Source of the DNA: a virus
IMG/VR virus record: IMGVR_UViG_3300023176_002508
Span: 1-35,304 of that record
Strand: one strand, 5' to 3'
Length of the DNA stretch: 35,304 nt
Below, piece after piece: positions 19,041-24,117 of this stretch. The first letter of the stretch is position 1, and each line of letters opens with the position of its first letter. Both the position numbers and the translations under genes were made by a program. The notes beneath the pieces were generated by a model, which saw nothing but the letters and a program-made list of their open reading frames with translations, made no database searches and was not told where the DNA came from.

Positions 19041-19562
19041 GTGGGTAAGACTATTTGTTTGGATCTTGATGGGGTCGTTGCAGATCTCGTTGGCTCGATC
19101 AATAAAGAACTAGATGTTCGTGGGATGTCTGGGTTTGATTATTCTGATTGGGTTATTTCTCCGTATGAGGATGATTTGACTCGGGAGATTTTTGGTTCTC
19201 GGGTGTTTTGGAGAAATTTGAAGCCTTTTGTTGATTCGTGGTATGCGGTTAATGATTGGTGGGCGTTGGGTCATGATGTATTTTTTGTGACTGCTAGGTA
19301 TTCTGATGCGGCTATTCGTTGGGCGAGGCCGTGGTTGGATATGTGGAATTTTCAGTATTCTGATTTGTTTTTTGCTGAGATGGGCGATAAGTCTGGCTTG
19401 GTGCAGATGTTGAAGGCTGATGTGATGGTTGAGGATAATCCTCATGAGGTTGGGTTGTTGAGGGAGGCTGGTGTTGATGCGTATTTGATGCGGGCTTGGT
19501 ATAATTCGGAGTTTTGGGAGGAGTTCCCTTCTGTGGGTTCTTTGTTGGAGGTGTTAGTGTGA
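19041..19562 (+). CDS. HAD-family 5'(3')-deoxyribonucleotidase-like
   Basis: A 173-residue protein with GTG start and GGAAAGG at 19027-19033. HAD motif I is 'CLDLDGVVAD' (Asp8 nucleophile, Asp10 acid/base), motif II is 'FFVTARYS' and motif IV is 'VMVEDNPHEV'. The insertion and size fit 5'(3')-deoxyribonucleotidases, which dephosphorylate dNMPs. In a phage replication operon this would adjust nucleotide pools, or remove a host or modified nucleotide. Third codon positions are strikingly G/T-rich. It overlaps the methyltransferase by four bases (GTGA). Confidence 0.8.
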   Translation: MGKTICLDLDGVVADLVGSINKELDVRGMSGFDYSDWVISPYEDDLTREIFGSRVFWRNLKPFVDSWYAVNDWWALGHDVFFVTARYSDAAIRWARPWLDMWNFQYSDLFFAEMGDKSGLVQMLKADVMVEDNPHEVGLLREAGVDAYLMRAWYNSEFWEEFPSVGSLLEVLV

Positions 19563-20749
19563 AGTTTGGTTCTTTGTTTGCTGGGGTCGGTGGTTTTGAT
19601 CTTGGTTTTGAGGCTGCTGGTGGTGTGTGTTGCTGGCAGGTTGAGTGGGATAAGCATTGTCAGCAGGTGTTGGGTTTTCGCTGGCCGACTGTGCCAAAGT
19701 TTGAGGATGTGCGTGATGTGTCTGGCTATGATTTGGAGCCGGTTGATGTTATTACGTATGGGTTTCCTTGTCAGGATCTGAGTGTTGCTGGCAAGCAGGC
19801 TGGTTTAGATGGCGACCGGTCTGGTTTGTTTTTTGAAGCCATTCGTATTATTAAGGAGATGAGAGATGCAACAGATGGACAATTTCCAAGAGTCGTTGTG
19901 GCCGAAAACGTCGCCGGACTGCTCAGTGCCGACGGAGGCGATGCAATGGGGAGATGCCTTGACACGCTGGCCGAAGCAGGGGCGTTGGTCAGCGAGTGGT
20001 GTATGTTGGACTCACAGTGGTTCGGAGTTCCCCAGAGAAGAAGGCGCGTGTTCCTTGCCTCTGTCTTCGATTCTTCAGTTGCCGGAAGATGTCCCGACGA
20101 AATTTTCCCTCTCTGCGAAGGCGGCTCAGGGGATTTTGAACAGAGCGTCAAGGAGGGGCAAAGAGTTGCCGGTGGAGTTGAGGATGGCGTTGGAGTCGGT
20201 CGTTCGTTCAGAATGCTAGGTTTTGGTCATTATGCTGATGATGATTCTGCGTCTACGTTGAAGGCTAGGGATTATAAGGATGCTACTGATCTTGTTGTGA
20301 TGCCTATTTCTGGTAAGGTGATTGGTCGTAAGGATTCTAATACGGGTAATGGTCGGGGTTATGGTTTTGATGGTGATCCGATGTTTACTTTGACTACGGT
20401 TGATCATCATGCTGTTGCTGTTGTTCCTTTTGTGAAGTCTAGGAGGGCACAGAATAAGGATGATTTTGAGACTTGGGTTGAGGGTGGTCCTGCGCCTACG
20501 TTGAATCAGTTTGATATGGGTGATATTCGTTCTACTGTGACGGTGTTGTCTGGTGATGCTGGTTCGTTGGGTGTGAGGAGGCTTACTCCGTTGGAGTGTG
20601 AGCGTTTGATGGGGTGGCCTGATGAACATACGTTGTATCGTTCTGATGGTAAGGTGACTTCTGATTCTCAGCGTTTTAAGATGTGTGGTAATGGTGTTGT
20701 GGCTCCTGTTGCTCAGTGGGTTGCTAAACAGATTGGGGCGTTGTTGTGA
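19559..20749 (+). CDS. DNA (cytosine-5) methyltransferase
   Basis: The GTG at 19559 overlaps the previous stop (GTGA), has GGAGG at 19547-19551 and gives 396 residues. It is preferred to an ATG at 19514 inside the upstream gene. Motifs: I 'FAGVGGFDLG' (about 6-15); IV 'GFPCQDLS' with catalytic Cys71; VI 'ENVAGLLS'; VIII 'QRRRRVFL'; a target-recognition region; and X 'GNGVV' near the C-terminus. It would transfer a methyl group from SAM to cytosine C5, probably protecting phage DNA against restriction; the target sequence is unknown and no partner restriction enzyme is seen. Bases 19862-20219 differ sharply in composition from both sides because a second gene lies there in the +1 frame. Confidence 0.93.
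   Translation: MKFGSLFAGVGGFDLGFEAAGGVCCWQVEWDKHCQQVLGFRWPTVPKFEDVRDVSGYDLEPVDVITYGFPCQDLSVAGKQAGLDGDRSGLFFEAIRIIKEMRDATDGQFPRVVVAENVAGLLSADGGDAMGRCLDTLAEAGALVSEWCMLDSQWFGVPQRRRRVFLASVFDSSVAGRCPDEIFPLCEGGSGDFEQSVKEGQRVAGGVEDGVGVGRSFRMLGFGHYADDDSASTLKARDYKDATDLVVMPISGKVIGRKDSNTGNGRGYGFDGDPMFTLTTVDHHAVAVVPFVKSRRAQNKDDFETWVEGGPAPTLNQFDMGDIRSTVTVLSGDAGSLGVRRLTPLECERLMGWPDEHTLYRSDGKVTSDSQRFKMCGNGVVAPVAQWVAKQIGALL
19853..19858 (+). promoter_or_regulatory. Shine-Dalgarno site of embedded gene
   Basis: AAGGAG lies inside the methyltransferase coding sequence seven bases before the ATG at 19866. The strength and spacing are ideal, which argues that the embedded reading frame is translated. Confidence 0.65.
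19866..20219 (+). CDS. Overlapping gene embedded in the cytosine methyltransferase
   Basis: A 117-residue reading frame entirely inside the methyltransferase gene, in the +1 frame. It has its own AAGGAG at ideal spacing. The C-terminal half looks like a real folded domain: 'PLSSILQLPEDVPTKFSLSA' followed by 'KAAQGILNRASRRGKELP' and a final amphipathic helix. I recall similar 'LS.KA..GILRRA.RRGKELP' sequences from small uncharacterised phage proteins. The N-terminal half is Trp/Ser/Pro-rich and looks less constrained. The G/T-biased composition of the surrounding gene switches to C/A/G-rich at about 19862 and back at about 20220, matching the ends of this frame. Function is unknown; a role tied to the methyltransferase is a guess. 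Confidence 0.68.
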   Translation: MQQMDNFQESLWPKTSPDCSVPTEAMQWGDALTRWPKQGRWSASGVCWTHSGSEFPREEGACSLPLSSILQLPEDVPTKFSLSAKAAQGILNRASRRGKELPVELRMALESVVRSEC

Positions 20750-23700
20750 CGGATTTTGTGCATTTGCATTGTCATAGTGAGTATTCACTTCTTGATGGGA
20801 TGTCTCGTCCTGAGGATATTGCTCGTATTGCGTCGTCTAATGGTCAGTTTGCGGCTGCTATTACTGATCATGGGACGATGGGTGGTGTGTTGAAGTTTCA
20901 GGATGCTTGCGATAAGTCTGGTGTTCGACCTTTGTTCGGTATTGAGGCTTATTTTGTTCCTTCTGTTGAGTCTGATTCTGATTCAAAGCATGAGCGTTTT
21001 CATTTGATTCTTTTAGCGAAGAATAATGAGGGTTTGCAAAAGCTTTTTGAGGCTAATCGTGTTGGTTGGAAGGACAATTTTTATTATAAGCCTCGTATGG
21101 ATTTTGATCTTCTCGAGGATCTTGTTGATGATGATGTGATTGCTTTGTCTGGTTGTATGGGTGGGGCGATTTCTAAGGCTTTGGAGCGTGGTGATCAGGC
21201 TGAAGCTGAGATGTTGTCGGAGAGGTTTGTCAAGATTTTTGGTGATGATTTCTATTATGAGGTGCAGGCTTGGAATCCTCAGTCGTTGAATGATGGGTTG
21301 ATTGATTTAGCGTCGTCGTTTAATAAGAAGGTTGTTGCTACTGCTGATTGCCACTTTCCTTCTGCTCATGATGCTCATGATGAAGAGGTTCTTCTTATGG
21401 TGTCGCAGTATCCGTCGTTGAATGCTGGTCAGGTTCGTCATGCTAAGGAGAATCTTGCTGGTGGGGGTAATGTGACGGATAAGATGAATCGTATGTATCC
21501 TGATCGTTTTCTCAGGTTTGATCATATTAATCCTTATGTTGCTCCTGCTGAAGAAGTGTTGTCTTGGTTCGCAGATAAAGGTTATGATGAGCCGTTGTAT
21601 CTTGAAAACACGGTTGAGGTTGCTGAGAAGTGTTCTGCTCGTATTGAGAAACGTAAGAATCTTTTGCCGAAGTATATGAAGGCTTTGGATTCAGATGATT
21701 ATTTGCGTGAGTTGTGTTTGACTGCTTTGTCTGACAAATCGATTGATACTGATGTGTATCGCAATCGTCTTGATGAGGAACTTGCTGTCATTTCTAAACT
21801 TGGTTTCTCAGACTATTTTTTGATGACTTGGGACTTGGTGAAGTGGTGTGATCGTAATGATGTTGGTCGTGGAACTGGTCGTGGTTCTGTCGGTGGGTCT
21901 TTGATTGCGTATTTGCTTGATATTTCTAAGGTTGATCCTATTGAGTATGGTTTGTTGTTTGCTCGTTTCTTGAATCCTGATCGTAATGATTATCCTGATA
22001 TTGATTTGGACTTTGAGGATAAGAAGCGTGAAGAGGTTAAGCAGTATCTTGCTGAGCGTTGGGGTTCTGAGAATGTTGCGGCTATTGCGACGTATGGTGT
22101 GTTTAAACCTAAGTCTGTGATTAAAGATGTCGCTAGGGTTTTTCAGGTTCCGTTTGATGAGACCAATAGTGTGACTCCGTTCTTTGAGACTTTGGAAGAG
22201 TTGCAGGCGACGGACAAGGGCAAGACGTTTATTAAGAAGTATCCTGATGTGTTGCCAGTTGCGAAGAAGTTGGAAGGCAGGATTCGTAATACTGGTATTC
22301 ATGCGGCTGGTATGGTTGTTTCTTCTGTCCCATTGACCGATATTTGCCCCGTAGAGACTCGTAAAGGCACTTCTGGCGAGGGCAGAGCGGCTGTCACTTC
22401 TTTTGATATGGAGGACGCTGAGGCGGTCGGTTTGATCAAGGTTGATATTCTTGGTTTGAAGACTGTTTCTGTTATTAAGGATTGTATTTCTAAGATTAAG
22501 GAGATTCATGGTGTTGACGTTACTGATACGTCGCTTACTTTGGATGATCCTGCTGTGTTCCAAAACTTTAATGAGGGTAATACTGTGGGTGTGTTTCAGG
22601 CTGATGCAGCTGCTTACAGAAACCTTATTGATCGCATGGGTATTGATGATTTTAATGATCTGGTTGTTTCTAATGCGCTAGTTCGTCCAGGTGCGTTGCT
22701 TTCTCAGGGTCAGGCTTATATTGACTGCAAGAAGGGTGAGGCTCAACCTAAGTATCCTCATGAGGTTGTGAAACCTATTTTGGAAGAGACTTACGGTACT
22801 GTCATCTTTCAGGAGCAGTTGATGCAGATGGCTGTGTTGCTTGCTGGTTTTACTTGGTCTGAGGCTGACAAGCTTCGTAAGATTATTGGTAAGAAGCGTG
22901 ATGCGGCTGGTTTTGATGAGTATAAGGAGAAGTTCTGTAGTAACGAGTATTTGACTCGTAAGCAGTCTGAGAAGATTTGGGCTGACTTTGAACTTGCGGC
23001 TTTGTACATGTTTAATAAGTCGCACGCTGTTGCTTATTCTATGTTGTCGTATCAGACGATGTGGTTGAAGATTAATTACCCTAAAGAGTTTGTGTGGTCA
23101 ATGCTGTACAACGAGTCTGAAAAGGGTAAGATCACCGCTTATCTGATGGAGGCTACTCGACTTGGTATTAAGACTCTTCCTCCTGATGTAAATACGTCAG
23201 ATGAGTATTTCACTATTGACTCTGAGGGTATTCGTTTTGGTTTGAGGAACGTTGCTGGCTGTGGTAATAGTGCGATTGATGAGATTACTAAGCATCGTCC
23301 TTACAATTCATACGACGAGTTTATGAACAAGTGTTCTAAGCGTCATGTGAAGGCTCCGCTTAGGGAAAGTTTGGAGAAGGTTGGTGCGTTCGTTTCTTTA
23401 GGTCATAATTCTGGCTATGATCACGAACGCTACTATCTTCCGATTCTAGGCTTTGCGGCTGGTCTTGCTGATAGCGATAACGAGATGGATGAACTTGTGG
23501 AGCCGATTGATGGCTTCCATGAGATTTACTCAGAGTTGCGGATGATTAAGGGTGTGGTTCGTTCTACTAAGAAGACACCGAAGTATCTGCGTGTTGAGAT
23601 TGAGGATCAAACATCGTCTGTCAGCGTGTTCTGTGATCGCAATGCTGAGATTGCTAATCGTGATTTTATGTATTTCTTGATTGGTGACCGCACATTACAT

Positions 23701-24117
23701 ATGTTCTGTGACGCTTATGAGTACGCAGGTACTGACCTTTATGATCTGACTACGATCAGGAAGAAGGGTAAGGAACACGAATATAATTGGTTGTATGACA
23801 CCGGCTTGGGTGACGCTTCGGATGAAAGAAGTTTGCTGTACATTTTTAGCACTAGGACATTTACTACTGCTAAGGGTAAGGATATGTGCAACTTTTATGC
23901 GTGGGATGGTCAGAAGATTATCAAGGTTGTTGTTTTCCCATTCTTGTACGCAAAAATGCGTCATATGTTGGGCAAGACAGGATGGCACGCTGCTAAACTT
24001 AAAGATGTAAAAGACTTAGAGGCAGCTGCTCGTCTGGACTCTTACACTCTGGACAACGAGAACTCCCTAATTACAATAGAAAACTATATTGAAAGAAAGA
24101 GGTTGGTCAAACCGTGA
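20746..24117 (+). CDS. dnaE: DNA polymerase III alpha subunit (C-family)
   Basis: A 1123-residue replicative polymerase, close to the full length of bacterial DnaE. It starts with GTG in a GTGA overlap. The N-terminal PHP domain has 'HLHCHSEYSLLDG' and 'AITDHGTMGG'. The palm has 'GRGTGRGSVGGSLIAYLLDI' and 'YPDIDLDF' with catalytic Asp418 and Asp420, and the third Asp is 567 in 'KVDILGLK'. The fingers contain 'KSHAVAYSMLSYQTMWLK'. The C-terminal part holds a helix-hairpin-helix and OB-type region. Encoding a full C-family polymerase together with helicase, primase and ssDNA-binding protein indicates host-independent fork synthesis. No clamp or clamp loader is seen. Codons are strongly T/G-ending. 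Confidence 0.95.
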   Translation: MTDFVHLHCHSEYSLLDGMSRPEDIARIASSNGQFAAAITDHGTMGGVLKFQDACDKSGVRPLFGIEAYFVPSVESDSDSKHERFHLILLAKNNEGLQKLFEANRVGWKDNFYYKPRMDFDLLEDLVDDDVIALSGCMGGAISKALERGDQAEAEMLSERFVKIFGDDFYYEVQAWNPQSLNDGLIDLASSFNKKVVATADCHFPSAHDAHDEEVLLMVSQYPSLNAGQVRHAKENLAGGGNVTDKMNRMYPDRFLRFDHINPYVAPAEEVLSWFADKGYDEPLYLENTVEVAEKCSARIEKRKNLLPKYMKALDSDDYLRELCLTALSDKSIDTDVYRNRLDEELAVISKLGFSDYFLMTWDLVKWCDRNDVGRGTGRGSVGGSLIAYLLDISKVDPIEYGLLFARFLNPDRNDYPDIDLDFEDKKREEVKQYLAERWGSENVAAIATYGVFKPKSVIKDVARVFQVPFDETNSVTPFFETLEELQATDKGKTFIKKYPDVLPVAKKLEGRIRNTGIHAAGMVVSSVPLTDICPVETRKGTSGEGRAAVTSFDMEDAEAVGLIKVDILGLKTVSVIKDCISKIKEIHGVDVTDTSLTLDDPAVFQNFNEGNTVGVFQADAAAYRNLIDRMGIDDFNDLVVSNALVRPGALLSQGQAYIDCKKGEAQPKYPHEVVKPILEETYGTVIFQEQLMQMAVLLAGFTWSEADKLRKIIGKKRDAAGFDEYKEKFCSNEYLTRKQSEKIWADFELAALYMFNKSHAVAYSMLSYQTMWLKINYPKEFVWSMLYNESEKGKITAYLMEATRLGIKTLPPDVNTSDEYFTIDSEGIRFGLRNVAGCGNSAIDEITKHRPYNSYDEFMNKCSKRHVKAPLRESLEKVGAFVSLGHNSGYDHERYYLPILGFAAGLADSDNEMDELVEPIDGFHEIYSELRMIKGVVRSTKKTPKYLRVEIEDQTSSVSVFCDRNAEIANRDFMYFLIGDRTLHMFCDAYEYAGTDLYDLTTIRKKGKEHEYNWLYDTGLGDASDERSLLYIFSTRTFTTAKGKDMCNFYAWDGQKIIKVVVFPFLYAKMRHMLGKTGWHAAKLKDVKDLEAAARLDSYTLDNENSLITIENYIERKRLVKP

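Follow-up and report, generated by a model that had tools for sequence, protein, structure and literature searches.

A gene nested in the +1 frame of phage C5-cytosine methyltransferase genes and its possible role as a second subunit

A 117-codon gene lies within the C5-cytosine DNA methyltransferase gene of a tailed phage, on the same strand and in the +1 frame, and comparison with relatives indicates that this stretch is almost certainly dual coding, with both frames conserved as protein. We consider it probable (about 0.7), judging from sequence comparisons, that the nested product is a beta subunit that gives back to the enzyme, in trans, a segment of its small domain that has been displaced from the main frame. 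Positions refer to the window, the whole stretch of 35,304 nucleotides analysed here (IMG/VR virus record IMGVR_UViG_3300023176_002508), which has PHROGs matches to the tape measure, tail fibre, exonuclease, SSB and large-terminase proteins of tailed phages.

The locus in the window

Motifs I, IV, VI, VIII, IX and X occur in a single frame (frame 0) and identify its product as a C5-cytosine DNA methyltransferase. The features of the locus are as follows.

19559–20749, plus strand: C5-cytosine DNA methyltransferase gene (alpha chain in our proposal), 396 amino acids, GTG start (PF00145, E = 7.6e-59, 200 bits; phrog_116, E = 1.9e-84)
19853–19858, plus strand: AAGGAG, a Shine–Dalgarno-like sequence spaced 7 nt from the ATG at 19866 (direct reading)
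19866–20219, plus strand: nested +1-frame gene, 117 codons and 117 amino acids (beta-like chain); alternative conserved start at 19875
19875–19877, plus strand: ATG common to most close relatives
19904–19912, plus strand: methyltransferase motif VI (ENV), within the overlap (frame 0 reading)
20019–20156, plus strand: residues 52–97 of the nested product, aligned by hhalign to the segment that follows motif VIII in ordinary enzymes
20033–20047, plus strand: methyltransferase motif VIII (QRRRR), within the overlap (frame 0; four of five residues invariant in the alignment)
20058–20216, plus strand: conserved helical C-terminal domain of the nested product, residues 65–117 (AlphaFold2)
20126–20428, plus strand: methyltransferase residues 190–290, a linker or variable region, poorly conserved and of low predicted confidence
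20576–20623, plus strand: methyltransferase motif IX (RRLTPLECERLMGWPD), in the main frame in the window (reading and invariant alignment columns)
20672–20719, plus strand: methyltransferase motif X region (reading and invariant alignment columns)

A sequence-only reading of this DNA had proposed the 117-codon ORF in +1 phase, the AAGGAG seven bases ahead of its ATG and a methyltransferase frame that keeps motifs VI and VIII across the overlap, and all of these are present as described. It had also reported a shift in base composition at the ends of the ORF, and the match to these ends is correct; raw C+A content (0.427) is not the highest in the neighbourhood, which reaches 0.486. About 12% of methyltransferase codons upstream end in A or C, as do 56% inside the ORF and 2% downstream (66 of 118 inside versus 15 of 277 outside, or 56% versus 5%; Fisher 5e-28), and it is this codon-position signal, not raw C+A content, that stands out in the window. 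The length of the ORF proves little, because with the methyltransferase protein held fixed the +1 frame also stays open in 31% of synonymous permutations and in 14% of codon-resampled versions; openness and length in the window are, by themselves, weak evidence of coding.

In most of the close relatives that were aligned, the second ATG (19875) is common and the position of the first often reads AAG; only the first ATG is present in three (L098, L102 and L188). The conserved nested start is probably 19875. An in-frame ATG occurs in 147 of 148 nested ORFs, where the first lies a median of 4 codons past the upstream +1 stop, and a Shine–Dalgarno-like stretch, loosely defined, precedes it in 107 of 148. 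At the start site, the Asn or Asp codon of the methyltransferase ends in T, which makes the ATG, in 39 of 44 distinct sites, against a background of 47.5% in the rest of the same genes (binomial 1e-8, only indicative as the sequences are related), and the nested start codon appears to be under selection.

The methyltransferase belongs to a chain of coupled genes. Its GTG overlaps the stop of the upstream gene (19041–19562, PNK/deoxyribonucleotidase-like by PHROGs) at 19559–19562, and its own stop overlaps, at 20746–20749, the GTG start of the next gene (20746–24117, 1,123 amino acids).

Conservation in two frames

Searching the nested product against phages, a check suggested by the sequence-only reading, found relatives in the +1 frame of the enzyme. 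At E ≤ 1, tblastn matched 154 of 50,697 phage records, and 36 of the 60 matches listed fell under a feature named methyltransferase, methylase or dmt. The first 12 loci fetched (from Mycobacterium, Ruminococcus, Faecalibacterium, Roseobacter, Caulobacter, Akkermansia, Streptococcus, Pseudanabaena and Vibrio phages, P1 and two others) all have the match in +1 of a methyltransferase. When these and the window are joined by 80 IMG/VR loci found with the nested product (the best 80 of 563 relatives), the family is in +1 in 93 of 93 loci; in seven of the 93, some stretch of methyltransferase also occurs in the nested frame, as accounted for below. The counts of relatives given here and below (563, 587, 213, 462 and 111) include two that are lower bounds, to be read as at least the number given.

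To keep the nested product out of the selection, 156 IMG/VR loci were picked by methyltransferase residues 1–98 only, upstream of the overlap (the best 80 from each of two scans, with 587 and 213 relatives), and 147 of the 156 have the family in +1. Every one of the 135 loci with a QRR.R motif VIII and enough sequence matches the family in +1. Frequent stops in the embedded frame of homologues, named beforehand as evidence against dual coding, were looked for in these 135: the embedded frame is open over 80 codons in all of them, and the third frame in one. The other 21 loci comprise 12 with the family, 2 that are cut short and 7 with another type of motif VIII and without the family. A profile of the C-terminal segment, built from the 12 first sequences only, recovers the same 147 of 156, all in +1, including 135 of 135 QRR.R homologues and none of the seven. 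With a larger profile, three of the seven match the N half at 26–36 bits and none matches the C-terminal segment. With the family in 147 of 156 loci and missing from those with another motif VIII, the nested trait, as far as these sequences go, marks one large subgroup of phage C5 methyltransferases. The seven loci (L166, L167, L176, L209, L226, L250 and L251), in most of which motif VIII is PH.R-like, lack the nested C-terminal segment and serve as natural controls.

The reduction in synonymous variation that the same reading had asked to be looked for is seen. Synonymous codon identity relative to the expectation from codon usage is 1.74 inside the ORF, compared with 1.08 upstream and 1.06 downstream (60 nonredundant genes out of 104 of full length). 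By block, the ratio is 1.22 just before the ORF, 1.46 from 19865, 2.77 at 20120–20170 and 1.08 after 20221; one later downstream block gives 1.90, from only two sequences. Across 33 disjoint pairs of relatives, there are 0.091 synonymous changes per codon inside the ORF and 0.212 outside it, although amino-acid divergence is much alike in the two parts (0.145 and 0.134). In the C half, change in these 33 pairs is 0.170 in +1 versus 0.298 in frame 0; in the N half it is 0.163 in +1 versus 0.091 in frame 0.

A 34-codon C-terminal block has an amino-acid identity of 0.637 in +1, 0.292 in frame 0 and 0.269 in the third frame, and its information by methyltransferase codon position (0.47, 1.12 and 1.26 bits) follows the periodicity of +1 coding; both measures come from loci chosen by their +1 product (91 of 93, L048 and L057 being left out as the regex found no motif, then 75 nonredundant). 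The view that both frames encode conserved protein needs qualifying for the nested N half, which is partly a shadow of motifs VI–VIII read in +1; weak +1 matches to the N half of the family profile (11–19 bits) occur in 5 of 42 methyltransferase loci. Openness, the +1 family and synonymous conservation together support the proposal of a true dual-coding region.

Distribution and annotation

Loci in bacterial genomes found with the nested segment have it in +1 in 80 of 80 cases (the best 80 of 462), and the titles of these genome-collection loci include Acidobacteria, the planctomycete Zavarzinella, Nitrospirae and many Proteobacteria. Loci like that of Streptococcus phage MM1 have it in +1 in 80 of 80 cases as well (the best 80 of 111). 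As read from these occurrences, nesting is shown to be ancient and widespread, in phages of several bacterial phyla. Free-standing copies of the nested family were found in none of the loci examined (the sets of 93, 156, 80 from bacterial genomes and 80 MM1-like).

The family is present in 23 annotated records that were opened, including seven selected in part because their annotation was odd; five of the 23 have the nested frame annotated as a CDS: FP_Toutatis (as a fused call), MM1, Thibault, 813R1 and MM1 1998. Several loci have unusual arrangements. In FP_Toutatis (L004, 2219–2836), the methyltransferase frame breaks close to where the nested match starts: its upstream part (to motif VI) continues in frame into the nested C terminus, and a different frame holds motif VIII and all that follows; the methyltransferase is frameshifted and the nested domain is kept. 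In phage Thibault (L335, 817–2618), an annotated HNH endonuclease gene (gp103) interrupts the methyltransferase just before the nested domain (gp104). In phage vB_EcoM-813R1 (L339, 1692–2201), the main frame is interrupted downstream of motif VIII, and the record gives the nested frame as a hypothetical protein.

Coordinates in P1, P7 and SJ46 are as follows.

L010 (P1), 2255–2728: nested ORF
L094 (P7), 2294–2791: nested ORF
L096 (SJ46), 949–1449: corresponding stretch

The nested frame is common to P1 and P7 as far as the GILRR motif, past which the two phages diverge in both frames, as if variable regions had been exchanged at the end of the nested gene.

Properties of the two proteins

The window product has the domain that defines the family, L..IL..-V..KY.LS..A..GILRRA-RGK-LP in the +1 frame of a C5 methyltransferase. 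AlphaFold2 (with 120 sequences) predicts a disordered first half (pLDDT 50–57) and a confident C-terminal part (residues 71–117, pLDDT 90–95) with helices at 84–97 and 103–116. A Foldseek search of the PDB gave a best E value of 2.0 and no support for a methyltransferase-like fold, and the VIA fold search (best Z 3.4) assigned no fold; sequence searches of the PDB with the nested family returned nothing useful. The best BFVD match is an uncharacterized 81-amino-acid protein of phage Thibault (E = 1.3e-3), the same length as gp104 of that phage. Pfam and NCBIfam hold no family for the window product or for the 12 members fetched first, and among 120 members there is one match to RHH_1 (E = 6.5e-4) and one to DUF1947. 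At E ≤ 1e-3, 86 of the 120 match phrog_16143 and 8 match phrog_1008 (the window protein matches phrog_16143 at only E = 0.0082), and the label of both, ‘DNA methyltransferase’, says nothing about a second frame. In G001–G003, phrog_1008 matches the nested-type part and a later stretch (252–286) at motif IX. The earlier description of a product of no known function can be sharpened: in every locus examined the family is nested in a methyltransferase, and one member is annotated as ‘C5 methyltransferase beta subunit’.

For the window methyltransferase, AlphaFold2 is confident over most of the catalytic part (with a dip at 71–90) and over motifs IX–X, and gives 70 or less from about residue 181 to 340. 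Such low values would be expected of a small domain without its partner, and in this sense the model offers weak support for a missing chain; variable regions often get low AlphaFold2 scores.

Resemblance to a segment of ordinary methyltransferases

Ordinary C5 methyltransferases have, past motif VIII and in their own frame, a segment (such as LADILENDEDVPESYFLSAEI in L506) that the nested pattern S-L-S-x-I-L-E-x-x-V-P-x-K-Y-x-L-S-x-K-A resembles. Against nine ordinary enzymes, hand-picked for resemblance, hhalign gave a probability of 70 (E = 4e-5) for the family and of 88 (E = 3e-6) for the MM1-like products; against unselected sets the probabilities were 2–21, at the same place. All six scores exceeded 60 of 60 column shuffles.

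Of 212 nested products, 194 are matched by the profile of these nine enzymes at E ≤ 1 and 133 at E ≤ 0.05, as are 53 of 53 MM1-like products (reduced from 59 for the profile comparisons); the 104 frame-0 stretches taken from nested enzymes and the 212 shuffled sequences gave no match. When the profile is built from all 65 ordinary segments, it reaches 2 of 212 nested products at E ≤ 0.05 and 40 at E ≤ 1, and 17 of 53 MM1-like products at E ≤ 0.05; it also matches frame 0 of nested enzymes (4 of 104 at E ≤ 0.05, 7 at E ≤ 1). The 65 ordinary methyltransferases were left after six loci had been removed by hand (four nested, one with a weak match and one duplicate), and include near-duplicates (61 distinct stretches). 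In the reverse direction, the nested segment profile matches 16 of the 65 at E ≤ 1 and 9 at E ≤ 0.05, and all 16 matches fall 29–57 residues past motif VIII; it matched none of the 65 reversed sequences and none of 104 frame-0 proteins of nested enzymes. Two MM1-type products match the PADLOC C5 methyltransferase model at 229–291, in a model whose positions 5–182 are taken by motifs I–VIII; the other six of eight nested products searched, the window's included, had no PADLOC match. A comparison of MM1-like products with Dcm (E = 1e-17) and a parallel one (E = 5e-19) were discarded, as both came from a single frameshifted locus (L407), and were repeated without it.

The nested C terminus is thus shown, at the level of sequence profiles, to resemble a segment that the main profiles do not detect in frame 0 of nested enzymes. 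Matches in both directions suggest that a segment kept in frame by some ordinary enzymes is the one found in the other frame of nested enzymes. The match is short, and strong only against the nine hand-picked enzymes. In nested genes the +1 ‘SLS.ILE’ stands opposite motif VIII itself and in ordinary enzymes it comes some 30 residues further on; a simple frameshift is therefore not enough to explain how the arrangement arose.

Proposed mechanism and alternative readings

We propose that the overlap encodes, in frame 0, the central part of a phage C5-cytosine methyltransferase (alpha) and that the +1 frame, read from an internal start, would give a small second chain (beta), disordered in its N-terminal half and folded at the C terminus into a compact helical domain. 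Beta would bind alpha and restore in trans the entry segment of the small, DNA-recognition domain, and if it does so the active enzyme would be a heterodimer produced from one overlapping locus. In some relatives motif IX is found in the nested chain too, as it is in the small chain of M.EcoHK31I. The window alpha chain might work alone, because frame 0 keeps motifs I–X. For a broader claim we put the odds only slightly above even: that, from mycobacteriophages to P1, a class of phage cytosine methyltransferases are obligate heterodimers made from one two-frame stretch of DNA, in which the entry segment of the recognition domain has moved to an internal +1 gene and is returned in trans, frame 0 being a free linker at that place.

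The nested gene could instead be translated for a function of its own, as a regulator, an anti-restriction factor or a DNA-binding helper, with a methyltransferase that its product does not complete. We regard this as a lesser possibility, roughly one chance in a handful. Motif IX is found by regex in frame 0 of most loci (13 of 13, 55 of 80, 108 of 151 and 56 of 80 in four sets), and alpha therefore looks complete by its motifs; the lack of a fold match for the C-terminal helices and the single RHH_1 match among 120 members point the same way. Set against these are the failure to see the family away from a methyltransferase in any locus examined, the match of its C terminus to a methyltransferase segment that the main profiles do not find in frame 0, and the four loci in which motif IX itself lies within the nested product; these argue for the beta-subunit reading.

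Programmed frameshifting, which would fuse the methyltransferase N terminus to the nested C terminus with no internal start, is improbable: the continuation of the upstream frame into the nested frame in FP_Toutatis speaks for it, but that is the only fusion seen, at a locus with a broken main frame, and almost all nested ORFs have an ATG shortly after the +1 stop, at a start that appears to be selected. Least probable is an artefact, in which the +1 similarity is a shadow of methyltransferase motifs, of codon bias or of a recombined DNA segment. The weak N-half matches in 5 of 42 methyltransferase loci, those at 26–36 bits in three methyltransferases without the C-terminal segment and the unremarkable length of the window ORF speak for this reading. 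The C half, however, is more conserved in +1 than in frame 0, information over its codon positions has the +1 coding pattern, the third frame is open in just one of 135 loci, and recombination would not preserve synonymous sites over 60 divergent genes, so that the comparative data already contradict this reading.

Significance and comparison with known systems

A two-chain C5 methyltransferase with a nested small chain is a kind of enzyme already met before. Our literature search did not find the nested family reported, which is not a claim that it is absent from print; also not found in that search were its breadth, its unannotated presence in P1 and other phages, an alpha chain that keeps motifs I–X, and the assignment of the nested domain to a displaced segment of the same enzyme. 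To our knowledge, small viruses apart, it is rare for a long same-strand overlap to be conserved across phyla. The present overlap sits in well-studied genomes, P1 included, and most of the records opened do not annotate it, probably since gene finders steer clear of overlaps of this sort. Should the nested chain be a subunit, a phage methyltransferase expressed without it might lack activity or have the wrong specificity, and methylome assignments and counter-restriction studies would be affected; the overlap would offer a clean case of a protein that keeps a part of itself in another reading frame.

Phage P1 has the nested ORF in +1 of dmt at about P1 66728–67201, as in the window; the nested CDS is not annotated, and the record calls dmt a bifunctional adenine and perhaps cytosine methyltransferase. 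In Streptococcus phage MM1 1998, ORF13 and ORF14 are annotated as alpha and nested +1 beta subunits of a ‘C5 methyltransferase’. MM1 ORF14, which is identical to that of MM1 1998, scores 103 bits against the family profile (profile positions 4–121); it ends soon after ‘YFLS’ and lacks the GILRRA-RGK-LP helices of the window product, and MM1-like products as a group are without the GILRRA helix.

In M.AquI, two chains make up one enzyme, with motifs I–VIII in alpha and IX–X in beta, and, according to PMC3404938, the halves divide the enzyme in sequence and not by overlap. The window differs in that its alpha chain holds motifs I–X. Four relatives (L033, L048, L049 and L169) have motifs I–VIII and IX–X in separate ORFs, as M.AquI does, and splitting therefore recurs in this group; in these loci the IX–X ORF is in the phase of the nested frame, after a stop.

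M.EcoHK31I (YGGCCR) is a C5 methyltransferase of a large and a small chain, as we propose for the window pair, and its small chain is encoded in another frame within the gene for the large one, the arrangement seen for the nested +1 ORF in the window. PMC3404938 places motifs I–VIII and X, together with the recognition domain, in the large subunit of M.EcoHK31I and motif IX alone in the small subunit. This partition, so described, recurs in four of our loci (L059, L062, L070 and L175), in which the nested ORF continues into motif IX and the main frame has motif X without IX; three of them (L059, L062 and L070) form one lineage, 72–76% alike, in which the motif IX part of the nested ORF corresponds to PF00145 positions 253–298, and L175 is separate. 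The window is not to be filed with the M.EcoHK31I type, because its motif IX is in the main frame and absent from the nested product; at most, and by analogy, its enzyme may work like M.EcoHK31I. If the broader claim is true, the EcoHK31I-like enzymes, whose small chain carries motif IX, would be particular instances of a more general design.
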